This document shows positions 38,466-55,269 of a DNA stretch of 64,000 nucleotides, one piece after another (positions within the stretch are counted from its first letter, which is position 1; each line of letters starts with the position of its first letter). Source of the stretch: Lentisphaerota bacterium (lineage in GTDB: Bacteria > Verrucomicrobiota > Lentisphaeria > Victivallales > Victivallaceae); the NCBI GenBank assembly GCA_015061605.1, contig SUWH01000001.1, forward strand, positions 62,001-126,000, written 5' to 3'. Position numbers and translations under genes: made by a program. Below the pieces are notes generated by a model. That model was not told where the DNA came from, searched no databases, and worked only from the letters and a program-made list of their open reading frames with translations.

Positions 38466-40505
38466 ATGGCTGAAATCACCTGGAGTTTGATGCATCCGAC
38501 CCCGTTGGATGTCGATTACATGAAGCTGGTCGTAAAAAATGCCCCGAAATACCGGGTCGACAGTTTTGAAATTTGCGCCGACTGTCACACCAACCTCGGC
38601 GGCATGGACGGGCTTACCGACTATGCTGATTTTCCGGTCACTCACAAGTCGATCGATCTGGCGGGTATCGAAGCCAACCGTAAGAAATTGCGTGAAGTTC
38701 TGGCAGTTGCCCACTCCATCAACAAGCCGGTTTATTATTGGCACCGCGAAGCGATGGTCCCCGCCGGTCTGCTGACAGACCGTCCCGATCTTCTTGATTC
38801 CAATGGCGAATTTGACCTTTTGGGTAAAGCATACGAAGAGCTCCTCCGTTACAAAATCGACAGCAGTTTCAAGAGCGTTCCGGAGCTGGACGGTCTGGTG
38901 CTGACTCTTACCGAAGCGACCTATTCCGTCATCCACAATTCCAACAAGGAAAAATATCCGCCGCAGAAAGTGGTCGAACACATCGTCCGCATTTTTGCTT
39001 CTGAACTGGCGGCGCGCGGCAAGCGTTTTATCCTCCGTTCCTTCGGTTCCATTGCCCAGGACTATGAAGACATCATTGCCGGTGCCCGCGGCGCGGCGCA
39101 GGAGTACGGTTTTGAGATCGAAACCAAGATCACTCCTTATGACTTCGATCCGTTCCTGCCGATCAACCCGTTCCTGCACAGTGTTCCCGGTGCCACTCTC
39201 GGTGCCGAATGTGACTGCCTGGGCGAGTTTCTCGGTGCCGGTAAACTTCCTGCTGAAAACGTTGAGAATATCGTCAAATATGTCCGTACCGGACAGGCTG
39301 CCGGTGTCGACCGCTACGCCATCCGTCTTGACCGTGTCGGCAACAATATCTTTGAATCCTATGAAATCAACCTTTATGCCTACGAGCGGGCGATCGACGA
39401 TCCGGAAGTGACCGCCGAAACTATCCGCAAAGAATGGCTGGAAATGCATGCTCCGGCTTCGGCGCGTGAGGCGTTTTACAAGCTCGGTATTGATGGTTTC
39501 CGGATGGTTGAACGCAACAACTTTATCGATGGTCACGTTATTTTCCACACTTTCCCGCTTCAGAAAATCCTTAAATATGTCAAGGCGGCTTTTGTTCCCG
39601 CCTTCTTCAAGAACGGTGTCAGTCTGAAGAACGGTGAAGGTGTCTGGTCGGTATTGTATGATAAGAATACTCCGGGACGCGATGCGATCATCCGCGAAAA
39701 AGAGGAGGCGGTCGCTATCGCCGATGCCGGTTTGGAACTGCTGAAATCCCTTCCGCGCGAAGCCGGTTTTGAACACGAATACGTCTGGCGTGAACAGCTT
39801 TGGACCAACGCCACCAAAATCACCCGTACTTTCCTTGAATATATGCGCGTGATGGCGGCGTACTTCGATTCCATGGAAGCCGGTGATCCGGAAGGCAAGC
39901 TCCTGCGCGCTGCTGCCGCTGAAGCACGCAAACGGCTTCAGGCGATGGCAAAATATCCGCTGGAAGAACCCGTTCCTGCCAAGACTGCCTTTGTCAATGG
40001 TATCGAGCAGCATCTTTTCCGCGGCAAGCGTGAACTCGAAGAGATCTATATCCAGCCGACCTATGTGATAACCAAGGTGCTTGAGGCAGAATATGATGCT
40101 GAATTTGCCGCCCGCAAGGAGTTCGGAGAAGGCGCTCATGACCTGATCCTCTGCGGAGGTCTGGTCGATGAATGGCGTATTGCCCGCTATATGCATTCGG
40201 CGCACTCCTCTCTGGAGAACGGCTATCAGATCCGCTGGGCAGGCAATACTGTCTTCCCGAATGGTTTCCTGGATATGGAACTTTCCCGCCCCGCCGGTAA
40301 TTGTGCGCTTTATGTCTGGGGTGACACCGAGGAGACCAGTGATTTCATCTGTACCATCGACGGTGTCCGCAAGCAGTACAAGTTCGATGACAGGGGCTGC
40401 TGCCGGATCGAACTTGCTGCCGGATCTGAAACGGTCAAGGTCCGTCTTGAAAAGGCACCCGGAGTCTGCTATCCCCGGTTCCGCGCTGTCGGCGTGAAGA
40501 ACTGA
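38466..40505 (+). CDS. Uncharacterised glycoside-hydrolase-like protein
   Basis: A 679-residue cytoplasmic protein (no signal peptide). The start at 38466 is preceded by AAGGA; the upstream in-frame ATG lies in the leader. The N-terminal 350 residues look like a TIM barrel with acidic patches (FEICADCH, DGLVLTLTEATYS, GAECDCLGEFLG, DRYAIRLDRVG). A helical middle follows, and a C-terminal beta-rich portion (GNCALYVWGDTEETSDF). The layout resembles large carbohydrate-active enzymes such as alpha-glucuronidase-like proteins, but I cannot name a family or identify catalytic residues with confidence. It is a single-gene unit with an operator-like upstream region. Confidence 0.55.
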   Translation: MAEITWSLMHPTPLDVDYMKLVVKNAPKYRVDSFEICADCHTNLGGMDGLTDYADFPVTHKSIDLAGIEANRKKLREVLAVAHSINKPVYYWHREAMVPAGLLTDRPDLLDSNGEFDLLGKAYEELLRYKIDSSFKSVPELDGLVLTLTEATYSVIHNSNKEKYPPQKVVEHIVRIFASELAARGKRFILRSFGSIAQDYEDIIAGARGAAQEYGFEIETKITPYDFDPFLPINPFLHSVPGATLGAECDCLGEFLGAGKLPAENVENIVKYVRTGQAAGVDRYAIRLDRVGNNIFESYEINLYAYERAIDDPEVTAETIRKEWLEMHAPASAREAFYKLGIDGFRMVERNNFIDGHVIFHTFPLQKILKYVKAAFVPAFFKNGVSLKNGEGVWSVLYDKNTPGRDAIIREKEEAVAIADAGLELLKSLPREAGFEHEYVWREQLWTNATKITRTFLEYMRVMAAYFDSMEAGDPEGKLLRAAAAEARKRLQAMAKYPLEEPVPAKTAFVNGIEQHLFRGKRELEEIYIQPTYVITKVLEAEYDAEFAARKEFGEGAHDLILCGGLVDEWRIARYMHSAHSSLENGYQIRWAGNTVFPNGFLDMELSRPAGNCALYVWGDTEETSDFICTIDGVRKQYKFDDRGCCRIELAAGSETVKVRLEKAPGVCYPRFRAVGVKN

Positions 40506-40521
40506 AATGATTTTTCCGGAT

Positions 40522-40543
40522 CGGGCGGGGGAACCGCCGCCCG
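40522..40543 (+). terminator. GC-rich hairpin after the glycoside-hydrolase-like gene
   Basis: A 7-bp stem CGGGCGG (40522-40528) with CCGCCCG (40537-40543) starts 16 bases after the stop codon. No clear T-run follows, so it may need Rho or act as an RNA 3' end stabiliser. The remainder of the 219-base gap holds the tRNA-Leu promoter. Confidence 0.4.
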
Positions 40544-40638
40544 GCTTCAATATCAGTGTGAATCCGGCAAAATTCAGCGTTTTGCCGGAGAAAACAGAAA
40601 AATATTGAAGTTTTTTTGAAAAAATATGCAAAAACGAT

Positions 40639-40667
40639 TTGCAAAACAACCAATCAGCATATATATT
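40639..40667 (+). promoter_or_regulatory. Promoter TTGCAA-17-TATATT for the tRNA-tuf operon
   Basis: TTGCAA (40639-40644) and TATATT (40662-40667), spacer 17, about 58 bases upstream of tRNA-Leu. The boxes are identical to those upstream of the genes at 6557 and 61481. Confidence 0.68.
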
Positions 40668-40724
40668 AGGTGATGTTCCATGTACGGCATGCGCGATGAT
40701 GCGGCTCGTGAGTGGAATTAAAAT

Positions 40725-40809
40725 GCCCGGGTGGCGGAATTGGCAGACGCGTATGGTTGAGGTCCATATGGAGCGATCCTTGGGGGTTCAAATCCCCCCT
40801 CGGGTACCA
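40725..40809 (+). tRNA. tRNA-Leu (anticodon GAG)
   Basis: An 85-base class II tRNA including the encoded CCA. The acceptor GCCCGGG pairs with CTCGGGT (G1-U72 as in E. coli tRNA-Leu-GAG). The D arm is GGCGGAATTGGCAGACGC. The anticodon stem TATGG/CCATA holds loop TTGAGGT, and the long variable arm has stem GGA/TCC. The T arm is GGGGG-TTCAAAT-CCCCC. It opens the tRNA-tuf-rpmG-tRNA-secE-nusG transcript. Confidence 0.95.
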
Positions 40810-40820
40810 CTTTGTGATAT

Positions 40821-40896
40821 GCCTGCATAGCTCAGTCGGTAGAGCACATCCTTGGTAAGGATGAGGTCTCCGGTTCAAGTCCGGATGCAGGCTCCA
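40821..40896 (+). tRNA. tRNA-Thr (anticodon GGT)
   Basis: A 76-base tRNA with CCA encoded. Acceptor GCCTGCA/TGCAGGC, D arm GCTC...GAGC, anticodon stem CATCC/GGATG with loop TTGGTAA, T arm TCCGG-TTCAAGT-CCGGA. It lies 11 bases after tRNA-Leu and 59 before tuf. Confidence 0.96.
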
Positions 40897-40955
40897 TTGT
40901 TTGTATATGTGAGTATCTGGTAAGGTAACCAAAGAAAACTTGTCAGGAGGACAAA

Positions 40956-42152
<1,197 letters not shown>

Positions 42153-42184
42153 CACTGAAGGGTAATAACCCGTTAGTGAATCGG

Positions 42185-42214
42185 TCCCGAACCGCCGCTA
42201 TCGACGGTTCGGGA
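42185..42214 (+). other. Stable hairpin between tuf and rpmG
   Basis: A perfect 10-bp stem TCCCGAACCG (42185-42194) with CGGTTCGGGA (42205-42214) and a 10-base loop lies 33 bases after the tuf stop. No T-run follows. It could be a partial terminator or an RNA-processing site that lets tuf be made in excess over downstream genes. Confidence 0.5.
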
Positions 42215-42253
42215 TGATCTGTAAAATTACAATTATAACTTTAGAGTGTTAAA

Positions 42254-42406
42254 ATGGCGCGTGAACTGGTTATCATGGAGTGCACTGAGTGCAAGCGTCG
42301 CAATTATACGACGATGAAAGAAAAGCGCAACACTCCTGAGCGTCTGGAAAAGAAGAAATATTGCCCCTTCGAGCGCAAGCACACCGTGCATAAAGAAACG
42401 CGCTGA
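42254..42406 (+). CDS. rpmG: 50S ribosomal protein L33
   Basis: A 50-residue L33 reading [20 protein letters not shown] at the start and HTVHKETR at the end. It is of the zinc-ribbon type, but the second cysteine pair is incomplete: CTEC is intact while the usual CPxC reads CPFE, so one of four zinc ligands is Glu. It lies between tuf and tRNA-Trp, the typical bacterial position ahead of secE. Confidence 0.95.
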
Positions 42407-42432
42407 CGCCGGGAAGTTTAGATAATCTCTGG

Positions 42433-42509
42433 AGGAGAGTAGCTCAGTTGGCTAGAGCAGCGGTCTCCAAAACCGCAGGTCGTGAGTTCGAGCCTCACCT
42501 CTCCTGCCA
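42433..42509 (+). tRNA. tRNA-Trp (anticodon CCA)
   Basis: A 77-base tRNA with encoded CCA. Acceptor AGGAGAG/CTCTCCT, D arm GCTC-AGTTGGCTAGA-GC, anticodon stem GCGGT/ACCGC with loop CTCCAAA, T arm GTGAG-TTCGAGC-CTCAC. It lies between rpmG and secE, a placement conserved in many bacteria. Confidence 0.96.
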
Positions 42510-42553
42510 GTATTTTTGGTTTTTAATTGAGTATTAACATTGAGGAACTCTGG

Positions 42554-42793
42554 ATGGGTAAAGACAAAAAAGGCGGCATGATTGCCGGATTTGATTCCGT
42601 GATGGGACGGGTCCGTGGTTTTATTGCCGATACGATTTCTGAACTCCGCCGCTGTTCCTGGCCAAGCCGCCGGGAGCTTCTGGAGTCCACGGTTCTTGTC
42701 GTGGTCGCTATGGTCATTCTGGCACTTTTTGTTGCCGGAGTCGATGAGTTGGCGATGAAGCTGATCCGTCTGGTTACGGTCCGCAATGCCTGA
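42554..42793 (+). CDS. secE: Preprotein translocase subunit SecE
   Basis: A 79-residue SecE, the clamp helix of SecYEG. The conserved cytoplasmic amphipathic segment ISELRRCSWPSRREL precedes one membrane helix (TVLVVVAMVILALFVAGVDEL). I start at ATG 42554 because GAGGAA lies seven bases before it; a TTG at 42527 is in frame but close to tRNA-Trp. Confidence 0.94.
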   Translation: MGKDKKGGMIAGFDSVMGRVRGFIADTISELRRCSWPSRRELLESTVLVVVAMVILALFVAGVDELAMKLIRLVTVRNA

Positions 42794-42814
42794 TATAAAT
42801 TTTCAGTTGGAGCT

Positions 42815-43405
42815 ATGACAATAGATATGAACGATACACTTGAAATGAGAGACGATCGTGGTCAGTGGTTTGTCGTGCAGACTCTGTCCGGTCACGAAAA
42901 TAAGGTGCGTGATACTATCAACCGTCAACTCCGTCTCGGGGATTCTGTGCCGGTTTATGAGGCGATGATCCCGGTTGAACGTGTAATGGAGATCCGCCGC
43001 GGTAAAAAGGTTCAGGTCACCCGCAAATTTTTCCCGGGCTATATTCTGGTTCGCATGGATCTTTATGATATGGACGGACGCATTGATGAAAAAGCGTGGT
43101 ATTTCGTCCGCAGTGTTCAGGGTGTGCTCGGATTTCTCGGCGGTGCCAACCGCCCGACCCCGCTTACCGAGCAGGAATTTCAGGATATGAATCCGACTCT
43201 CGGCGAAGATGCTCCGCAGCCCACGCTGGTCATCGGTGCCAAAGTCGGCGACATCGTCCGTATCAAGGACGGTGCATTTATGGGTTATGAGGGTAATGTC
43301 CAGACGGTCGATGAGACCCGCGGTCGTCTCACGGTCGTCATTTCGATCTTCGGACGTTCCACCCCGGTAGATTTGGAGTTTTGGCAGGTCGAACAGGCTG
43401 TTTGA
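42815..43405 (+). CDS. nusG: Transcription termination/antitermination factor NusG
   Basis: NusG binds RNA polymerase and couples it to the ribosome or Rho. The N-terminal NGN domain has QWFVVQTLSGHENKVRDTI and RKFFPGYILVRMDL. The C-terminal KOW domain has GDIVRIKDGAFMGYEGNVQ. It has 196 residues, with a short linker. GGAG lies only two bases before ATG 42815; an in-frame ATG at 42827 is an alternative start. It lies 21 bases after secE. Confidence 0.96.
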   Translation: MTIDMNDTLEMRDDRGQWFVVQTLSGHENKVRDTINRQLRLGDSVPVYEAMIPVERVMEIRRGKKVQVTRKFFPGYILVRMDLYDMDGRIDEKAWYFVRSVQGVLGFLGGANRPTPLTEQEFQDMNPTLGEDAPQPTLVIGAKVGDIVRIKDGAFMGYEGNVQTVDETRGRLTVVISIFGRSTPVDLEFWQVEQAV

Positions 43406-43498
43406 GCTTGTTCGGGACTTTAATTAAAAGGTGACAACCGTTTCGGGAGAATTCCTGTCAGTTCGTACCGCATCGGTGTCGTAATTAAGGAAAAAATC

Positions 43499-43927
43499 AT
43501 GGCAAAGAAGGTTACAGGCTTGATCCGCTTGCAGATCCCGGCTGGTGCCGCCAATCCGGCTCCCCCGATTGGTCCCGCACTCGGTGCCGCAGGCTGCAAC
43601 ATTATGGAGTTCTGTAAGCAGTTCAATGCCGCCACTCAGGCTCAGAGCGGTACGGTTATTCCTGTCGTGATCACGGTCTATCAGGACCGGTCTTTCACGT
43701 TTATCTGCAAGTCGCCCCCGGCCGCTGTGCTGGTGAAAAAGGCGGCTGGTCTGGCTTCCGGTGCCCACAAGCCCGGCAGTGAAAAAGCTGGTAAAATCAC
43801 CCGCGAGCAGATCCGTGAAATCGTTCAGATCAAGAAGGAAGATATCAACGCCCGGAGCGAAGAAGCGGCGATGCGCATCATCGAAGGAACCGCGCGCAGC
43901 ATGGGAATCGAGGTGGTCGATGCGTAG
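43499..43927 (+). CDS. rplK: 50S ribosomal protein L11
   Basis: A 142-residue L11 with the proline-rich N-terminal [20 protein letters not shown] (thiostrepton/L11-stalk domain) and the C-terminal rRNA-binding [10 protein letters not shown]. The 93-base nusG-rplK gap has AAGGA just before the ATG. The end overlaps rplA by eight bases. Confidence 0.97.
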
Positions 43928-44624
43928 AAGTAAACTGTACAAAAAGCAGCTCGAATCTCTCGGAGATTTGCAGTTGCGTCACGGCGTGACCGAAGCGATC
44001 AACAAACTCAAGGCTCTGCCTGGAGTCAAGTTTGATCAGACGGTCGAAGTCGCGATGAAGTTGGGTATTGATCCCCGTAAATCCGACCAGACGGTCCGCG
44101 GTGTCGTTCCGATGCCCAGCGGTACCGGTAAAACTGTCCGCGTTGCGGTGGTTTGCGAAGGTGCCCAAGCTCAGGAAGCTCAGGAAGCCGGTGCAGATGT
44201 TGTCGGTTACGAAGATCTGGTTCAGAAGATCAAAGACGGTTTTCAGGATTTCGACACCCTGATCGCCACTCCGGAAGCGATGAAGATGGTTCGTCCTCTT
44301 GGTCGTCAGCTCGGACCGCGCGGTTTGATGCCGAACCCCAAAACCGGTACCGTTACCGACGCTGTCGGTGCTGCGGTGCGTGAAGCCAAGGCCGGTCGTG
44401 CGGAATTCCGCGCTGATCGTGGTGCCTGCATTCACGTCCCCATCGGTAAACTTTCTTTTGAAACCGATGCATTGCAGGTCAACTTTGATGCTCTTGCCGA
44501 TGCGATCCAGAAGGCCCGTCCGGCATCTGCCAAAGGTACTTACATCCTGTCCTGCACCATTTCCGGTACTATGACTCCCGGTCTTAAGATCAACCTTAAA
44601 GAACTGGCGAAGGTGGCGAAATGA
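43920..44624 (+). CDS. rplA: 50S ribosomal protein L1
   Basis: L1 binds the 23S L1 stalk and can repress its own operon. The 234-residue protein has [13 protein letters not shown], then [15 protein letters not shown] and [22 protein letters not shown] use ATG 43920 (MRRSKLYKK), which overlaps the rplK stop and matches family length. A longer in-frame start inside rplK is rejected. The end overlaps rplJ (ATGA). Confidence 0.96.
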
Positions 44625-45148
44625 GAATTGAAAAACAGTTTCTGGTTCAGTCGATCGTCAACGCGGTCAAGGAATCTGACTTCGTTTACTTCGTCTCCTA
44701 TGCCGGTCTGAAGGTCAAAGATTTTTCTGATTTGCGCGATCAGATCGCCGCTCAGGGCGCATTCTGTCAGGTTCAGAAGAATACCTTGATCAAAAAGGCC
44801 GCAGCTCAGCTCGAATTGAGCGGTGTCGAAGCTATTGATCTTACCGCCAGCACCGCGATGGTGTTCGGTAAAGGTGATTGCAGTGCTGTTGCCAAACTTC
44901 TGCTTGAGTTCGGCAAAAAGAATGAACAGGTCAAGGCAAAAGGCGGTTACATGGATGGCGCGGTGCTGTCCAGCGCAGAAGTCGATGCACTTGCTGAACT
45001 GCCGACCAAACCCGTGCTTCAGTCTATGTTGCTTGGCGTCCTCCAGGCGCCTGCGCGTAACCTCGTTACGGTCCTCAATGCCAAAGCTGCGAGCATCGTC
45101 AATGTGGTCAACGCCTACAAAGACAAACTTGAGAACGCTAACAACTAA
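44621..45148 (+). CDS. rplJ: 50S ribosomal protein L10
   Basis: L10 anchors the L7/L12 dimers on the ribosomal stalk. 175 residues. The N-terminal part has FVYFVSYAGLKVKDFSDLRDQ and a C-terminal helix for L7/L12 binding (NAKAASIVNVVNAYKDKLEN). The start overlaps the rplA stop, so there is no intergenic space for the L10 leader found upstream of rplJ in many bacteria. Confidence 0.96.
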   Translation: MRIEKQFLVQSIVNAVKESDFVYFVSYAGLKVKDFSDLRDQIAAQGAFCQVQKNTLIKKAAAQLELSGVEAIDLTASTAMVFGKGDCSAVAKLLLEFGKKNEQVKAKGGYMDGAVLSSAEVDALAELPTKPVLQSMLLGVLQAPARNLVTVLNAKAASIVNVVNAYKDKLENANN

Positions 45149-45171
45149 TATAAATACAGGAGGCATTTAAG

Positions 45172-45561
45172 ATGTCTGAAGAAAACAAAATGGAAGAATT
45201 CGTTTCCTATATCGAAAACATGACCGTTTTGGAACTCTCCAAGCTGGTCAAGACCCTTGAAGAACGTCTCGGTGTCAGCGCTGCTGCTCCGGTCGCCGTC
45301 GCTGCTGCTGCTCCGGCTGCTGCCGCTGCCGCTCCGGCTGAAGAAAAAACCGAATTTGACGTCATCCTGGCCGGCTTCGATGCTGCCAAGAAAATCGGCG
45401 TCATCAAAGAAGTCCGCGGCGTGACCGGTCTCGGTCTGAAAGAAGCCAAAGACCTCGTCGAAGGCGCTCCCAAGGCTCTCAAGGAAGCTGTTTCCAAAGA
45501 CGAAGCCGAAAAGATCAAAGCCGCGCTCGAAGCCGCTGGTGCCAAGATCGAAGTCAAGTAA
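45172..45561 (+). CDS. rplL: 50S ribosomal protein L7/L12
   Basis: The 129-residue stalk protein has a helical N-terminal dimerisation domain, an Ala/Pro-rich hinge (about residues 37-60) and the globular factor-binding domain [19 protein letters not shown] with [21 protein letters not shown] precedes the start. A hairpin and a repeat array follow before rpoB. Confidence 0.97.
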
Positions 45562-45579
45562 TTTTGACTGTTGTTTTCA

Positions 45580-45610
45580 CGGCGAAAAGGGCATTTTGCC
45601 CTCTTCGCCG
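45580..45610 (+). other. Strong hairpin just after rplL (attenuator or processing site)
   Basis: A 13-position stem with one A-C mismatch (45580-45592 with 45598-45610, arms CGGCGAAAAGGGC and GCCCTCTTCGCCG) starts 18 bases after rplL. There is no T-run, so simple intrinsic termination is unlikely. In E. coli the same gap carries an attenuator and an RNase III site that lower rpoBC expression relative to rplJL. Confidence 0.6.
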
Positions 45611-45620
45611 CGATTTCGTG

Positions 45621-45665
45621 TCTGCCCTCCGGAGTTTTGGCGGGCAGATGCAAAACTGGATCTGC
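45621..45665 (+). promoter_or_regulatory. Mutually exclusive stem pairings in the rpoB leader
   Basis: The segment GGGCAGAT (45642-45649) can pair upstream with TCTGCCC (45621-45627, 7 bp) or downstream with ATCTGC (45660-45665, 6 bp). The downstream arm shares its last two bases with the stem of the first repeat hairpin. Such competing pairings are typical of attenuators, but chance is possible in a short GC-containing leader. Confidence 0.35.
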
Positions 45666-45858
45666 GGTGTGGACTTTTTGCCGTGTTTCCAGTAAATTTT
45701 TCCCGGTATGGTGTGGTTTTTTGCCATGGCGGGAGAGCAAATTGAATAGTTGCGGTGTGGTTTTTTGCCGCCTTTTCAATAAAAATTCCCGGTGCGGTGT
45801 GGTTTTTTGCCGGCAGGGAAAATCTTATGCAGGTGAGCGATGTGGATTTTTGTCGCTG
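45664..45858 (+). repeat. Five-copy hairpin repeat array in the rplL-rpoB leader
   Basis: Five degenerate copies of a ~20-base unit occur at 45664, 45708, 45752, 45794 and 45837, spaced 44, 44, 42 and 43 bases. Each has a loop TGTGGTTTTTTG (variants A/AC in the middle) closed by a short stem. Stems differ but keep pairing: GCGG/CCGT, ATGG/CCAT, GCGG/CCGC, (G)CGG/CCG(G), AGCGA/TCGCT. A related hairpin GTACTG-TAAATTTTTTG-CAGTAC follows at 45893-45915. The full 494-base gap (45562-46055) has no gene. The rest of it, up to the rpoB ribosome-binding site, holds only a small AGCAG-TTTT-CTGCT stem. Confidence 0.75.
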
Positions 45859-46055
45859 CCTCCGGTTCCGATGTCTGCGGACAGCCGTTACTGTACTGTA
45901 AATTTTTTGCAGTACGGACAACGTTTGTCGGCGGAGGTCGGTTGTTTTGTCTAAAGACTATGGTTTTCCGCAGAAAATTGTTGAAAAAATCAGCAGTTTT
46001 CTGCTTTGATGTGTAAAATATTTTTTAAAAAATAACAACTACAGGAAAAGTACAA

Positions 46056-49000
46056 GTGGAACGGAAAAGTTTTGGAAAACTCCGCGATGTTCTGGAGATG
46101 CCTGATTTGATCGCACTTCAGGTCGATTCCTACGACAATTTTCTGCAGCGTTACGTCCCCCCTGCCGAACGTAAACGTCAGGGCCTGCAGGAAGTTTTCA
46201 TGGAAATCTTCCCGATCGAAAGTTTCGACAAACAGACTTCACTGGAATTTGTCTCCTATGAAATCGGTGAATGCCCCGAACAGAAAAGCAATGTCATCGA
46301 CTGCATCAAAGACGGCAAGATCTACGATGCCCCGCTTCATGTGAATTTTCTGCTCAAGACCGAAAAGGGTGAATTCGCCGACAAGGTCTTCATGGGCGAT
46401 ATCCCCATCATGACCGAGCAGGGTACTTTTATTATCAACGGTGCCGAACGTGTTATCATCAGCCAGCTGCACCGCAGCCCCGGCATCTGCTTTGAAAAGA
46501 CCCGGCACACCTCCGGCCGCACCCTTTACAGCTACCGGGTCATTCCCGATCGCGGTTCCTGGATGGATGTGCAGTTTGATACCAGCGGCTGCATCTGGAT
46601 CTATCTTGACCGCCGCCGCCGCCGCCGGAAATTCTATATCACCACTTTCCTCCGCGCCATCGGTTATCCGACCAACCGCGACATCCTCAAAGAGTTCTAT
46701 CCGCTGAAGAAATTCACCATTTCCCAGCTGCTCAAAGAAAAAGATCTTTCCAAGTTCTACACCATTGACGATGTTACCAATGCCGCCGACGAAGTCATCG
46801 TCAGTGAGCCGGTGCAGCTCAATGAAAAGATCCTTGCCGATATGCAGGATGGCGGTATCAGCGAAGTCGAACTGGCGATCGTTCCGCCCAAGGAAGATTA
46901 TATCTTTGCCAGCTTGCGTAAAGATCCCGCCCGCGATGAAGAAGATGCTCTCAAAGAGATCTACCGCCGTATGCGTCCCGGTGATCCGCTCAATCTGGGT
47001 AACGCCAAACTGCTCATCAAGCGTCTGTTCTTTGACAACCGCCGCTATGATCTGGGCGCAGTCGGCCGTTACAAACTCAACGAACGGCTCAAACTTGACA
47101 TCCCGATGGATGTCCGTACCCTCGATCCGCGCGATCTGATGGCTGCGACCAAGATGCTTATCGATCTGCATCACACCAACGGTCAGGTCGATGATATCGA
47201 CCATCTCGGCGCCCGCCGTGTCCGTACCGTCGGTGAATTGCTCCAGAACCAGTGCCGTGCCGGTCTGTTGCGTACCGAACGTCTCATCCGTGAACGTATG
47301 ACCTACGATGATGCGGATATGACTCCGTCCAAGCTGATCAATCCGAAGACCTTTGCCGGTGTTATCCGCGACTTCTTCGCCCGCAGTCAGCTTTCCCAGT
47401 TCATGGATCAGACCAACCCGTTGAGCGAATTGACCAACAAGCGCCGTTTCTCAGCGTTGGGCCCCGGCGGTTTGAGCCGTGACCGTGCCGGATTTGAAGT
47501 CCGTGACGTTCACTCCAGCCACTACGGCCGTATCTGTCCGATCGAAACTCCGGAAGGTCCGAACATCGGTCTTATTTCTTCCATGTCGCTCTACGCGATC
47601 ATCAACGAATACGGTTTCCTCGAAACCCCCTACCGCAAGGTGGTTGACGGTCAGGTCACCGAACAGATCGACTATCTGACCGCTGATAAGGAAGAACAGT
47701 TTGTCATCGCCCAGGCCAACGCGCTGCTGGATGAAAACAACCGCTTTGTCCGTCCGATGATCATGTGCCGTAAGGCCGGTGAATCCGGCGAGCATCCGCG
47801 GGAAGAGGTCCAGTATATGGACGTTTCTCCGAAACAGCTCGTCAGCGCCGCTGCCGGCATCATCCCCTTCCTTGAACACGACGACGCCAACCGTGCGTTG
47901 ATGGGTTCAAACATGCAGCGTCAGGCGGTTTCCCTGCTCAATCCGGAATCCCCCTATGTCGGTACCGGTTTGGAAAAACGCATCGCCCGCGACTCCCGCG
48001 CCGTGGTTATCGCCCGTGAGGATGGCGTGGTCGCCGAAGTAAACAGCGAACGCATCGTTGTCACCCCCGATGGTTCACTTCCCACTGAAGAAAACCCCGG
48101 ACGCACCTACCGCCTTTACAAATATCTGCGCAGCAATGCCGGTACCTGTATCAACCAGCGTCCCCGCGTCCACAGCGGCGATGTGGTGAAAAAAGGCGAC
48201 TTGCTCGCCGACGGCGCCGCTACCCATCAGGGAGAACTTGCTCTCGGCCGCAACGTGTTGGTCGCTTTCATGCCCTGGTGCGGATACAACTTTGAAGACG
48301 CTATCATCGTCAGCGAACGTCTGGTGAAAGAAGATACCTACACCAGTATTCACGTTGATGAGTTTGAAATCACCAGCCGCGATACCAAGCTCGGTCCGGA
48401 AGAGATCACCCGCGATATTCCCAACGTCGGTGAAGATGCCCTGCGCAATCTCGACAGCCGCGGTATCGTTATCGAAGGTGCTGAAGTCAAACCCGGTGAT
48501 ATCCTCGTCGGTAAGATCACTCCCAAGAGCGAAACTGAACTCGCTCCGGAAGAACGTCTGCTCCGTGCCATCTTCGGTGAAAAAGCTGCTGATGTCAAAG
48601 ATTCCAGCTTGACCGTTTCCAGCGGCAAGGGCGGTATCGTTATGGATATCCGCATCGATTATGCCAAAGAGCAGCCTGTCCGCGGCGGCATGACCAAAGC
48701 TGACAAGAAGAACCAGGAACGTCAGATCCGCAACGATTACCGCGAAGCGTACAATGATCTCGTTGAAGAACTCACCGGTCGCCTCTGTGATGCGCTCCTC
48801 GGCTTGAAGCTCAAGAATCCGATCATTGACGGTGCTGACGAAAACGGTAAAGTTCTGGTTCCCGCCAACCGCAAGATCACCCGCAGCCCGCTGCAGAAAC
48901 TTGCGGCTCACTACAACAGCTGGACCATGGAAGATTGCGAACAGAAATCTGCCATCGCCGCCATCATCGACTCTTTCAAACCCCAGTTTGAGGAAAATGA

Positions 49001-49865
49001 GGCCCGTCTGCACAACCTCGGTAATGACAATCCCGATCAGAATACCAATGGCACCATCCGCCGGGTCAAAGTCTATGTCGCCTGCAAACGCAAGCTTCAG
49101 GTCGGTGACAAGATGGCCGGCCGCCACGGTAACAAAGGTATCGTTTCCCGTATCGTCCCCGTTGAAGATATGCCGTTCCTCGAAGACGGTACTCCGGTCG
49201 ACATCGTGTTGAACCCGCTCGGCGTGCCGAGCCGTATGAATATCGGTCAGGTTTTGGAAACCCACCTCGGCTGGGCTGCCAAAATGCTCGGTATCAAAGT
49301 CGCGACCCCGGTCTTCGATGGTGTTACGGAAGAGATGATCGTTGACCTCATGGGCAAAGCCAATGAGAAGTTCGCCGAAGAAAACGGCAAGAACTATCAC
49401 TGGGGATTTGTCAAACAGGAAGACGGTTCCTATGTGTACGATGGTAAGGCCGATGTCTTTGACGGACGTACCGGTGACCGCTTCGATCAGCGCGTCATGG
49501 TCGGTCAGATCTACATGCTCAAACTTGACCACCTGGTCGCCAACAAGATCCACGCCCGTGCCGTCGGCCCCTATTCGCTGGTCACCCAGCAGCCGTTGGG
49601 CGGTAAAGCGCAGCACGGCGGTCAGCGTTTCGGAGAAATGGAGGTCTGGGCGCTTGAAGCGTACGGTGCAGCCTACACGCTGCAGGAAATGCTTACGGTC
49701 AAGTCTGACGATGTCGGCGGCCGTTCCAGAATCTATGAGTCGATCGTCAAAGGTCACAACGTGCTGTCTGCCGGACGTCCGGAATCTTTCAACGTGTTGA
49801 TGAAAGAAATGCAGAGTCTCGGTCTTGATATCCGCACCGTCCGTGACGGCGGCGAAGAACGGTAA
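46056..49865 (+). CDS. rpoB: DNA-directed RNA polymerase beta subunit
   Basis: A 1269-residue beta subunit. GTG start at 46056 with AGGA nine bases upstream. Typical blocks include [36 protein letters not shown], and near the C-terminus [15 protein letters not shown] and [20 protein letters not shown]. In the rifampicin cluster the sequence [12 protein letters not shown] has Asn461 (AAC at 47436-47438) where E. coli has His526; other key positions (Q513, D516, S531 equivalents) are conserved. rpoC follows after 25 bases. Confidence 0.98.
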
Positions 49866-49890
49866 TTAAATTTCGAGGGAGGACTGAACC

Positions 49891-52800
49891 TTGATTGACA
49901 ATACTTATGCTTATCGTGAACTGCTCGGCAAAGAAGCCGGCACTTCATTCGGTGCGATCTCCATCAGTGTCGCCTCTCCGGATGTGATCCGGAGCTGGTC
50001 GCACGGCGAGATCAAGAATCCTGAAACCATTAACTACCGTTCTCTCAAACCGGAGAAGGGCGGACTTTTCTGCGAACGCATTTTCGGACCCACCCGGGAC
50101 TGGGAATGTAACTGCGGAAAGTACAAACGCATCAAGCACAAAGGCGTTATCTGCGACCGTTGCGGTGTTGAAGTCACCCAGGCCAAAGTGCGCCGTGAAC
50201 GCATGGGCCATATTGAACTCGCCGTTCCGGTGAGCCACATCTGGTTTTTCAAGTGTATGCCCAGCCGCATCGGTCTGATGCTGGATATGACCGGCAAACA
50301 GTTGGAAAAGGTTCTTTATTATGAAGAATATGCTGTTACCGATCCCGGTGACACTCCGCTGGAAAAAGGTCAGGTTCTGACCGAGGTCGATTACTGGCAG
50401 GCCCGTGAAGACTACGGCGATGCCTTTGTCGCCGATATGGGTGCGCCCGCGATCAAGGCGCTGCTTGAAGACATCAACCTGGAAGATATGCGCAACCAGT
50501 TGGAAGCCGAACTTGCCACCACCGGCAACAAAGCTCTGCGCAAGAAATTTTCCAAACGTCTCCGTCTGGTCGAAGGCTTCATCGCCAGCAATTCCCGTCC
50601 GGAATATATGATGATGTCGGTGCTTCCGGTCATCCCGCCGGATCTGCGTCCGCTGGTTCCGTTGGAAGGCGGCCGTTTCGCCACCAGTGACCTCAACGAC
50701 CTTTACCGCCGCGTCATCAACCGCAACAACCGGTTGAAAAACCTGCTTCAGCTCCGCACTCCGGAAGTTATTATCCGCAATGAAAAGCGCATGCTTCAGG
50801 AAGCGGTCGACTCCCTGATGGACAACGGCCGTCACGGCCGTATCGTCACCGGTGCCGGCAACCGCCCCCTCAAGAGCCTGTCTGATATGCTCAAAGGTAA
50901 ACAGGGCCGTTTCCGTCAGAACCTGCTGGGTAAACGTGTCGACTACTCCGGCCGTTCGGTGATCGTTGTCGGTCCGGAATTGAAGATCCACCAGTGCGGT
51001 CTGCCCAAAAAGATGGCGATGATCCTCTTTGAACCCTTTATCATCCGTCACCTCAAAGGTCGTGGCTATGCCCACACCGTCCGCGGTGCCAAGAAGATGA
51101 TCGAACGCGGTGAACCCGTCGTCTGGGATATCCTCGATGAAGTGACCAAGGGACATCCGGTCATGCTCAACCGTGCGCCTACCTTGCACCGTTTGAGTAT
51201 CCAGGCGTTTGACCCGGTTCTTATCGAAGGTTCCGCCATCCGTCTGCACCCGTTGGTCTGTACTGCGTACAACGCTGACTTCGACGGTGACCAGATGGCT
51301 GTTCACGTGCCGCTTTCAAACGAAGCGCAGATGGAGACCAAGCTGCTGATGCTTTCTCCCAACAACATCTTCTCTCCCGCCAACGGTAAACCGATCGCTT
51401 CACCGACCCACGATATCACGCTCGGCAGCTACTATCTTACGATTGAACCGCTGAAAAAACCTGCCAAGCTCTATCGCGATTACTATGAAGTGCTTTATGC
51501 CATGCAGGCCGGATTCCTGAAGATCCATGATCCGGTCCGTATCCCCAACCCCGACTACGGTCGTGATACCATTTACGGTGATAAGGATTCACGCTTCATC
51601 ACCACCACTCCGGGACGTTGCCTTTTCAACGAGATCTGGGACAAGCGTCTTGGATTCTACAACAGCGTTGCCAAAAAGAAAAGTCTGGGTAAACTTATCA
51701 GTGATTCCTATGAAGTTGCCGGTCATGAAGCTACCATCAAGCTGCTGGATGATCTGAAAGATCTCGGTTACAAGCACTCCACGCTCGCCGGACTTTCCAT
51801 CTCCATCGCCGACTTGAAGGTCCCCGAAGCTAAAGTCGAAATCATCGACAATGCCCGCGCCCAGATCGACGAAGTTCTCAAACAGTATGCCAACGGTATG
51901 CTGACCGACGGTGAACGTCACAAAAAGGTCATCGATATCTGGACCCAGGCTGGTGACGCGGTCAAAAATGAACTTTTTGAAAGCTTGGAAGAAGCCAGCC
52001 GCCGCGGCGAAGTCAACCCGGTTTACGCGATGATGGATTCCGGTGCCCGAGGCAGCAAAGATCAGATCAAACAGCTCGCCGGTATGCGCGGTTTGATGGC
52101 CAAACCGAATGGTGACATTATCGAACGTCCGATCATCTCCAACTTCCGTGAAGGACTTTCGGTGCTGGAATACTTCATCTCCACCCACGGTGCCCGTAAA
52201 GGTTTGGCTGATACCGCGTTGAAAACCGCGGACTCCGGTTACATGACCCGCCGTCTGGTCGACGTCGCCCAGGATGTCATCTGCCGCGAATATGACTGCG
52301 GAACCAGCAAAGGTGTCTGGACCAGTGCCATTGTCGAAGGTGACGAAGTCCAGATGCCGCTGCGCGACCGTCTGATCGGCCGTTACAGCGCTCAGGATAT
52401 CCGCGACCCGGCATACAACGACGGCCGCATGATCATCCGTGCCGGTGAAGAATTCACTCCGGAAATCGCTGATCTCATTGAGAAACGCGGTATTCTTAAA
52501 GTGTTGATCCGTTCCGCGCTCACCTGTGAAACTCTCCACGGTCTCTGCGTCAAATGCTACGGCAAAAACCTTGCCAGCGACCGCGAAGCCCGCCCCGGTG
52601 ATGCTCTCGGTATCATTGCCGCCCAGTCCATCGGTGAACCCGGTACCCAGCTTACCATGCGTACCTTCCACATCGGCGGTACCGCGTCTGCTGCTTACAA
52701 ACAGCCGGTCATTTCCGCGCGTCACGCCGGTAAGATCAAGCTGTTGAATGTCCGTACTGTGGTCAACCAGAAGGGCAAGACCGTTGTGGTCAACAAAAAC

Positions 52801-54240
52801 GGCTGCGTCATCATCTATGATCCGGAAAAAGCCAAGGCTGCCGAAGACAAGGCCCGTGCCGCATTGGAAGCTGAAGCCGCTATTCTGGGCATGATGCGCA
52901 AGGATTATGACTTCACCGAAGATGCCATTATCGAAGCCGAACTTGAACGTTATGACCTTGAACCCGGTTCGATCCTTGATCTCGGTGACGGCGATCTTGT
53001 TAAAGCCAATGAGGCCTTTGTCCGCTGGGAACCTGACCACGTGCCTATTATTATTGAAGAAAGCGGTGTGGTCGAACTTACCGACCTGGTCGAAGGTGTC
53101 ACCATTCAGAAGCAGAAACGCGGCAGTGGTTCCGGTGACCAGGGTACGGTTATGGAACACCGTGACGACCTGCACCCGCAGATCACCGTCAAGGATGCTG
53201 AAGACAATCTGCTTTCCAACTATCCGCTTCCTGCCGGTGCTGTGTTGATGGTCAAAAACGGAGCAAAAGTCACTCCGGGTATGGTCGTCGCCCGTGTGCC
53301 GCGTCAGTCCGCCAAAAACAAAGACATCACCGGTGGTTTGCCGCGTATTGCCGAATTGTTTGAAGCCCGTATGCCCAAGGATGTCGCTGAAATCGCCAAG
53401 ATCGACGGTTTCGTTGAAGTCGACAAACTGGTGCGCGGCAAACGGCAGCTGGTCATCAAAGACCCGGTTTCCGGTATGACTGAAGAACACAACGCCATTC
53501 CGCTGCACAAACATTTGGCAGTGAGCAAAGGCGACTTTGTACACAAGGGACAGAAACTTACTGAAGGTTCCATTGTTCCGCACGCATTGCTCGAGGTTTG
53601 CGGTATTCATGAGTTGCAGCGCCATCTGGTCGACGAGATCCAGCTGGTGTACCGCGCCCAGGGTGTGGAAATCAGCGACAAGCACGTTGAGATCATCATC
53701 CGTCAGATGATGCAGAAAGTGCGGATCACCGATCCGGGACAGACTCCGTATCTGGTCGGCGAACAGCCTGACCGGGTGGAATTCAACCGGATCAACCGCG
53801 AAGTGAGTGCCCGCGGCGAACGTCCGGCAGAAGCCGAACCGGTGCTGCTCGGTATCACCAAAGCGGCTCTGGAAACCGAAAGTTTCATCTCCGCCGCCAG
53901 CTTCCAGGATACCACCCGTATCCTTACTGAAGCTGCTACGATGGGTAAAGTCGACCGTTTGGCCGGTTTCAAAGAAAACGTCATTACCGGACATCTCATT
54001 CCTGCCGGTACCGGTGCCGCCAAGTTCCAGAATCTCCGTCTGAAATATCTGGGCACCGAGATCGAACCGGAACTCCCGGCGCAGGAAGAAGCCCCGCGCT
54101 CCTATGATGATGTCGCCGCCGAATGGCGCGATGCCGATGGGGCTGATGATGAGTTCCCCGAGGAGACCACTGAAGTGGTTTTCGATGAGGAAGAACTTGA
54201 CGGTTTCGGCGAAACTGACGCAGGAATCGATGAAAATTGA
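49891..54240 (+). CDS. rpoC: DNA-directed RNA polymerase beta' subunit
   Basis: A 1449-residue beta' subunit starting at TTG 49891 with GGAGG eight bases before. The N-terminal zinc ribbon is [20 protein letters not shown]. The catalytic NADFDGD is at residues 461-467, binding the active-site Mg with three Asp. A second zinc site is [13 protein letters not shown]. The C-terminus ends in an unusually acidic tail of about 50 residues (runs of E and D). A terminator follows, separating it from rpsL. Confidence 0.98.
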
Positions 54241-54266
54241 GGTTTTTTGAGTAAAATTTCAATATC

Positions 54267-54307
54267 GGATTTGAAAATAGCACAAAGTTGTGCTATTTTA
54301 TAAATCC
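54267..54307 (+). terminator. Terminator between rpoC and rpsL
   Basis: An 11-bp perfect stem AAAATAGCACA (54274-54284) with TGTGCTATTTT (54289-54299), extended outward by GGATTT/AAATCC. The descending arm ends in TTTT. It lies 27 bases after the rpoC stop. An AT-rich stretch after it (TTGATT around 54329, TATAAA around 54350, spacer about 15) may be the rpsL promoter. Confidence 0.65.
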
Positions 54308-54378
54308 GTCGATGTGTTGTGTTTGATTCGTAAGAGTTTTTTATATAAAGTGTAGAGTAAAAAAATCAGGAAATTACC

Positions 54379-54780
54379 ATGCCGACAATCAATCAGCTGG
54401 TGCGTCTCGGACGCGAAGAGAAAGAAAAGAAAAGTAAATCAAAGGCGTTGACCGCCTGCCCGCAGCGCCGTGGCGTCTGCTTGCAGGTTACGACCCGTAC
54501 CCCGAAAAAGCCGAACTCGGCGTTGCGCAAGATCGCCCGTGTGCGTCTGACCAACGGTCAGGAAGTTACCGCTTACATCGGCGGTGAAGGTCACAACCTT
54601 CAGGAACACTCCGTGGTTCTGGTCAAAGGCGGCCGTGTCCGTGACCTTCCCGGTGTGCGTTACCACATCGTCCGCGGTTCTCTGGACAGCCTCGGTGTTG
54701 ACAAACGCCGTCAGGGCCGTTCCAAATACGGTGCCAAACGCCCGAAACCGGGTGCCGAAGACGCTAAAAAGAAAAAATAA
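54379..54780 (+). CDS. rpsL: 30S ribosomal protein S12
   Basis: S12 lines the decoding site. 133 residues, with [20 protein letters not shown] (Lys43 conserved) and [19 protein letters not shown]. The next loop reads [11 protein letters not shown]: residue 88 is Arg (CGT at 54640-54642), where most bacteria have Lys (E. coli Lys88 counting Met). Lys-to-Arg here confers streptomycin resistance in mycobacteria. rpsG follows after 18 bases. The C-terminus is lysine-rich. Confidence 0.97.
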
Positions 54781-54798
54781 TACGGGAGTAATCGTGCT

Positions 54799-55269
54799 AT
54801 GAGAAGACGTAGAGTCGTCAAGCGGGAGTTGACTCCCGATGTGAAGTACAACAGTTTGCTGGTCGCCCGGTTGATCAATACCATCATGACCCGCGGCAAA
54901 AAATCCACCGCCCAGGGCATTGTTTACAGTGCTTTTGAGCTGATGGAAGCCAAAAAGCCGGATATGCCGGCGATCGATATCTTTACCCAGGCGCTTGAAA
55001 ATGTCAAGCCCAAGGTCGAAGTCAAGAGCCGTCGTGTCGGCGGTGCCACCTATCAGGTGCCCATCGATGTCGATCCGGAACGTCAGGTCGCTCTGGCCAT
55101 GCGCTGGATCACCACCTATTCCCGCGGCCGCAAAGGCAAATCCATGGTCGAATCCCTCGCCGGTGAACTGCTGGATGCCTTCGACAACACCGGTGCTTCT
55201 GTGAAGAAAAAAGAAGACACCTTCAAAATGGCGCAGGCGAACAAGGCGTTCGCTCACTACCGCTGGTAA
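54799..55269 (+). CDS. rpsG: 30S ribosomal protein S7
   Basis: S7 nucleates assembly of the 30S head. 156 residues starting MRRRRVVKRELTPDVKYNS, with GGATYQVPIDVDPERQVALA and a C-terminal AQANKAFAHYRW. Standard str-operon position between rpsL and fusA. Confidence 0.97.
   Translation: MRRRRVVKRELTPDVKYNSLLVARLINTIMTRGKKSTAQGIVYSAFELMEAKKPDMPAIDIFTQALENVKPKVEVKSRRVGGATYQVPIDVDPERQVALAMRWITTYSRGRKGKSMVESLAGELLDAFDNTGASVKKKEDTFKMAQANKAFAHYRW

Follow-up and report, generated by a model that had tools for sequence, protein, structure and literature searches.

A conserved leader between rplL and rpoB

In the window (the whole stretch of 64,000 nucleotides analyzed, to which all coordinates refer), rpoB and rpoC belong to the gene cluster tuf-secE-nusG-rplKAJL-rpoBC-rpsL-rpsG-fusA and follow rplL after a leader of approximately 495 bases, extending from the rplL stop (45561) to the rpoB start (46056). 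What does this leader do, and could it set the expression of rpoBC apart from that of the ribosomal-protein genes upstream? From 5' to 3', it contains a hairpin behind rplL, termed (a), an array of five hairpins with the common loop UGUGG-N-UUUUUG (45655-45863), termed (b), a long hairpin with a U-rich tail, termed (c), and an A+T-rich stretch that precedes rpoB. The features are given below, with matches to the covariance model R1 described further on.

45172-45561, forward strand: rplL (ribosomal protein L7/L12), 5' of the leader; ORF of 129 aa
45577-45615, forward strand: hairpin (a), directly after the rplL stop and followed by GAUUUCGUGU; -24.1 kcal/mol, z = -5.8
45655-45693, forward strand: unit 1, loop UGUGGACUUUUUG; R1 match 45658-45690, 26.1 bits, E = 7e-5 in the window; fold z = -3.7
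45701-45734, forward strand: unit 2, loop UGUGGUUUUUUG; R1 match 45702-45733, 33.4 bits, E = 5.5e-7; z = -4.2
45741-45780, forward strand: unit 3, loop UGUGGUUUUUUG; R1 match 45746-45777, 31.9 bits, E = 1.5e-6; z = -2.3
45786-45820, forward strand: unit 4, loop UGUGGUUUUUUG, inner stem disturbed; R1 match 45788-45819, 29.0 bits, E = 1.1e-5; z = -1.4
45829-45863, forward strand: unit 5, loop UGUGGAUUUUUG; R1 match 45831-45862, 30.6 bits, E = 3.6e-6; z = -1.8
45868-45954, forward strand: element (c), hairpin 45868-45941 with base CCGAU/GGUCGG and tail UUGUUUUGUCUAA, also given as UUGUUUUGUCU; -42.9 kcal/mol, z = -7.0
46056-49865, forward strand: rpoB (RNA polymerase beta), GTG start, 3' of the leader; ORF of 1269 aa
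49891-54240: rpoC, after rpoB; ORF of 1449 aa

The position of the leader between co-directional genes suggests that it is transcribed. Folding of the region 45640-45960 gave -127.1 kcal/mol, as compared to -97.3 +/- 4.7 for shuffled sequences (z = -6.4). Homologues of rplL were found in 54 of 60 relatives, and the hairpin that follows rplL, with the tail UUUCGUGU or UUCUUUUGUGU, is kept through the order, also in genomes that lack the array. Further upstream in the cluster, rplA and rplJ overlap (44624/44621; window 44600-44640), and the usual site for an L10 leader RNA is thus absent here.

Architecture of the array units

The preliminary description of this locus had proposed five units at a period of 42 to 44 bases, each with a short stem closing a 12-base loop. 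All five units are present, with spacings of 44, 44, 42, and 43 bases, and they do form hairpins; their stems are longer than had been noted, and the effective loop is shorter. When folded singly, a unit has two stems, outer and inner, with a small internal loop between them. RNAalifold further predicted a neck of a U.G pair followed by an R.U pair (G.U or A-U), with UGG-N-UUUU remaining as an octaloop. The mismatch reported in the copy at 45794 corresponds to the disturbed inner stem of unit 4, but the hairpin at 45893-45915 that had been counted as a sixth copy proved to be the apex of the separate, larger hairpin 45868-45941.

Evidence for a selected RNA structure

Alignment A2 comprised 71 distinct units, in which 82.5% of the pairs were standard; approximately 13% of the standard pairs counted were G-U. 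Its covariation score was 0.657, as compared to 0.248 +/- 0.021 after shuffling and at most 0.23 in slid registers, and two-sided changes were observed in all seven stem pairs. Among all column pairs, an APC-corrected G-test placed stem pairs at ranks 1 to 5. The exact probability of this covariation is weakened by the kinship of the sequences, and the shuffles ignore the tree; the blind covariance-model search reported below is free of this weakness. The covariation was strong, and the loop is nearly invariant on stems whose sequence is free to vary, which bears out the initial proposal that the structure is under selection.

Pairing was also tied to the loop itself. At least 3 consecutive pairs flanked the loop core in 99 of the 111 cases in the rplL-rpoB gaps of the family (122 matches minus 11 in the downstream tail), as compared to 2 of 36 occurrences of the core in other parts of the loci retrieved (38 minus 2 in a second rpoB leader). 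Within the gaps, the core was found 80 times in the sense orientation (the rpoB strand) and 0 times in antisense. A coding repeat was rejected because the unit spacings modulo 3 (16/19/20) break the reading frame. Taken together, covariation, strand bias, frame-blind spacing, and the loop-anchored control exclude chance and a coding repeat and practically exclude double-strand DNA sites. There is good support for the array acting in cis as RNA.

An indication of how the loop is used came from genome G018, where both copies share the altered loop UAUCGAUUUUUG on different stems. This concerted change supports one shared trans-acting reader and argues against gene conversion.

Distribution in relatives

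Units were found in all 28 genomes of the same genus that hold the rplL-rpoB gap, with 1 to 5 copies each. Six genus members without an array match also had no rplL match, indicating that the gap is missing from these assemblies. Across the family, the gaps that were read contained units in 46 genomes from eight genera (g1, g3, g25, g26, g27, g28, g32, and g38) and none in 18 genomes from ten other genera; gaps read from other families had no units. The homologous arrays anticipated upstream of rpoB in related genomes thus exist, in every genus member that has the gap and in seven further genera. Variant necks were seen in g32 (CAG-GUGGUUUUUU-CUG) and g26 (AUC-GUGGUUUUUU-GGC), both below the R1 threshold.

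Model R1 was built from 71 units and searched against overlapping sets of 137 (order), 198 (class), and 388 (phylum) genomes. At the thresholds used, the matches listed were all within the window's own family, and among those listed none came from the other families of the 388-genome phylum sample. The search of related genomes that had been suggested at the outset was informative: 12 genomes outside the training set were matched blind, 11 of them in the rplL-rpoB gap, and the twelfth (G116) is an assembly without rplL. Within the genome of the window itself, E < 0.1 was reached by no sequence other than the five array units; the lack of any other site at this threshold indicates that the element is dedicated to rpoBC. 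A REP-like dispersed palindromic repeat was rejected because these five units are the only copies genome-wide at that threshold.

Weak R1 matches inspected at other loci in relatives lay in or across ORFs, with one exception in a tig-clpP gap, and were treated as chance. L181, on the reverse strand of G001:C16 (1001-1033), is a hairpin with weak likeness to a unit (GGTGACGGTATGGATTTTCTGCCGTCACC, E = 0.035), flanked by tig-like and clpP-like ORFs; it may be either chance or a second site.

On a quick tree of rpoB N-terminal sequences, in which G035 was mislabelled as array-less, the presence of the array required 4 changes, as compared to 25.7 with shuffled labels. This fits an array that arose few times and was inherited vertically. 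The median gap length was 427 bases with the array versus 185 bases without it.

Several other features were observed in these gaps. Within the array region of the g32 loci (L187, L188, and L236) there is an inverted repeat, long but imperfect, GTCAATTTCAAAGATAA ... TTATCTTTGGAATTGAC. Three array-less g33 genomes (L237, L238, and L239) have another conserved leader in common, CTTGACCGAATCTTTCCGGT ... CATGCCGC ... ATCTAACTCACTTGGCAAGA. The g36 gaps (L241 and L242) have the common blocks CTGAACCTGATTTATTCATAAGACCG and ATTTATGATTAACTCAGGTTTTGG, which are partly complementary, lie approximately 100 to 150 bases apart, and are perhaps another rpoB leader structure. G033 contains two different rplL-rpoB leaders (L011 in G033:C162 and L177 in G033:C124), one identical to that of G008 and the other similar to that of G017, and is probably a mixed bin. 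Among named sequences, the closest matches to the window's rpoB come mostly from Verrucomicrobiota, an uncultured Lentisphaerae bacterium among them; the window probably stems from a Lentisphaeria (Victivallales-like) lineage. L038, a MAG labelled Candidatus Paceibacterota, has a Verrucomicrobiota-like rpoB that is the best named match to that of the window (63% identity), and is probably misnamed or a mixed bin.

The hairpin downstream of the array

Element (c) is also conserved. In relatives, the base CCGAU/AUCGG and the tail UU[GC]UUUGUGU are maintained and the apex is variable; CCGA/UCGG at the base is invariant in 32 of the 32 members compared, the tail occurs in most, and the upper stem co-varies. 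The tail is an imperfect U-tract. In shape, (c) resembles an intrinsic terminator or a hairpin-assisted pause and, as judged from its sequence, may be called terminator- or pause-like. The tails contain TTGTTT or TTCTTT, which fits the TTNTTT motif of Bacillus subtilis NusG (PMC7819879). A gapped pattern search for (c) in the window's own genome gave 0 matches and carries no information, since the true copy exceeds the length that the pattern permitted.

In several g38 genomes (G126, G129, and G131-G134), the array loop unit forms the tip of (c), directly above the U-rich tail, an arrangement that ties the loop to this hairpin. Members of g25, g27, g28, g32, and g26 with units had no clear match to (c). 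Whole-leader folding predicted no pairing between the array and (c), and a switch made of RNA only is thus not supported.

Comparison with known systems

In Escherichia coli, an attenuator at the rplL-rpoB junction decouples ribosomal-protein from polymerase expression, and the control of rpoBC has been called incompletely understood (PMC4670729). The leader described here resembles that attenuator in its position, in having a hairpin ahead of rpoB that is followed by a U-rich tail, and in its presumed job of decoupling the two groups of genes (PMC4670729). An RNase III processing site accompanies the attenuator in E. coli. Terminator-like hairpins of the E. coli type are present between rplL and rpoB in the form of (c) and the post-rplL hairpin. 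The two systems differ in that an array of identical-loop hairpins is not reported for E. coli in the literature found, and no sequence or structure match between them was found. As in other leader RNAs, the structure is conserved with covariation and its position is constant, namely, the rplL-rpoB gap in all array-bearing genomes that hold this gap.

Lacto-rpoB (RF01709) is likewise a predicted structured RNA named for rpoB, in Lactobacillales (PMC2864571), but it belongs to another phylum. Searches with cmscan found no match to Lacto-rpoB or any other Rfam family in window positions 40000-55000 (E up to 1) or in ten relatives (E up to 0.5), and the array thus appears to be a new RNA family.

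The multi-site leaders of TRAP and CsrA likewise repeat a short motif several times within a single leader, an arrangement that suits cooperative binding. TRAP recognizes spaced triplets in single-stranded RNA, unlike the hairpin array. For CsrA, the difference lies in the loop, which is UGG-N-UUUU here and contains the GGA core in just 10 of 111 loops. Antitermination by NusG paralogs of the LoaP/RfaH type is similar in that a nucleic-acid signal in the leader alters read-through of downstream terminators; however, the 88.7%-complete genome has a single PF02357 match, the housekeeping nusG of this operon, which makes such a factor unlikely.

A working model and its alternatives

Considering the freely varying stems, the fixed loop, the several copies, and the single dedicated locus, it appears that the loop is read by something. 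We assign a probability of roughly 55% to the reading that the array is a docking site for a trans-acting factor and, together with (c), sets rpoBC read-through. The stem would serve only to present the UGG-N-UUUU loop, held by the wobble neck. A single RNA-binding factor acting in trans, with a protein as the likeliest candidate, would recognize the repeated loop, and the several copies would permit cooperative or graded loading of this factor onto the nascent RNA. Once loaded, the factor would change the behavior of RNA polymerase at the terminator- or pause-like element (c), just downstream, and the read-through into rpoBC would thereby be set apart from the upstream ribosomal-protein genes. 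Factor-mediated control at (c) is favored by the shape of (c), by the loop-tip arrangement in g38, by the evidence for a reader in trans, and by the parallel with the E. coli attenuator. That the partner is a protein, that (c) attenuates, and which sign the effect has are what we infer from these observations.

The genome of the window carries one RRM gene, which was considered as a source of the partner. It was rejected: RRM genes are equally present in families without the array and hence give no specific support for an RRM partner, and the leaders of RRM genes had no such hairpin. By its mere presence, an RRM protein is a weak candidate.

A possible though unlikely alternative is that the leader is a processing or stability module, in which the hairpins are cutting sites of the RNase III/E type or barriers to 3' exonucleases, so that rplJL would give a stable and rpoBC a separate, less stable message. 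This would agree with the strong hairpin seen across the order just behind the rplL stop and with the title of Barry et al. 1980, as listed in PMC5371410, according to which the E. coli rplJL-rpoBC RNA is attenuated and processed. However, a barrier or double-strand cleavage leaves unexplained why a near-invariant loop sits on freely changing stems, and the concerted loop change in G018 is equally unaccounted for.

We consider it rather improbable that the loops are a means of autogenous sensing, in which RNA polymerase, NusG, or a ribosomal protein of the same operon binds them and represses rpoBC, with the array titrating free polymerase. The dedication of the array to the rpoBC locus, the autogenous control of rpoBC in E. 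coli (PMC10931766), and a NusG that is the only one in the genome and is itself a product of this operon all speak for this possibility, as do the TTNTTT non-template motifs that recruit B. subtilis NusG (PMC7819879), given TTGTTT or TTCTTT in the (c) tails. Against it, the candidate proteins are universal, whereas the array is limited to one clade of one family. A variant that we likewise regard as doubtful is a gauge tuned by valency: RNA polymerase or the operon-encoded NusG would bind the nascent leader, and rpoBC read-through would depend on the number of filled sites (1 to 5). If true, this would be a mode of polymerase autoregulation not previously described.

The preliminary description had offered a tandem RNA element binding either a protein or a small RNA. 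The selected RNA element stood up to analysis; the partner is something we infer, and pairing of a small RNA with the repeated loops is very unlikely, since the loop is indeed single-stranded and repeated but its full sequence, TGTGGNTTTTTG, to which such an RNA would have to be complementary, has just three occurrences beyond the array in the window's own genome, all within ORFs. The least probable reading is that the array consists of factor sites in the DNA, as also raised at first, or of a mobile repeat of the dispersed, REP-like kind, which the tandem near-identical 12-base cores might suggest but which is countered by the covarying stems with their G-U pairs, the 80:0 strand bias, the single locus per genome, and the ancient, diverged copies.

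Significance

No published description of the array was found in a search that covered few subscription papers. As far as this search extends, the array is a new tandem RNA element, specific to this family, at the point where rpoBC is controlled, with a job of a known kind and a new solution to it. How the level of RNA polymerase is set outside model bacteria is poorly known, and here the rpoBC control point is occupied, across a whole bacterial clade, by an RNA element that is clean, ancient, and dedicated to it alone. Its natural variation in copy number (1 to 5) and loop sequence makes the mechanism directly testable. The array points to on-message control of the amount of RNA polymerase in these bacteria and implies a new RNA-binding partner.
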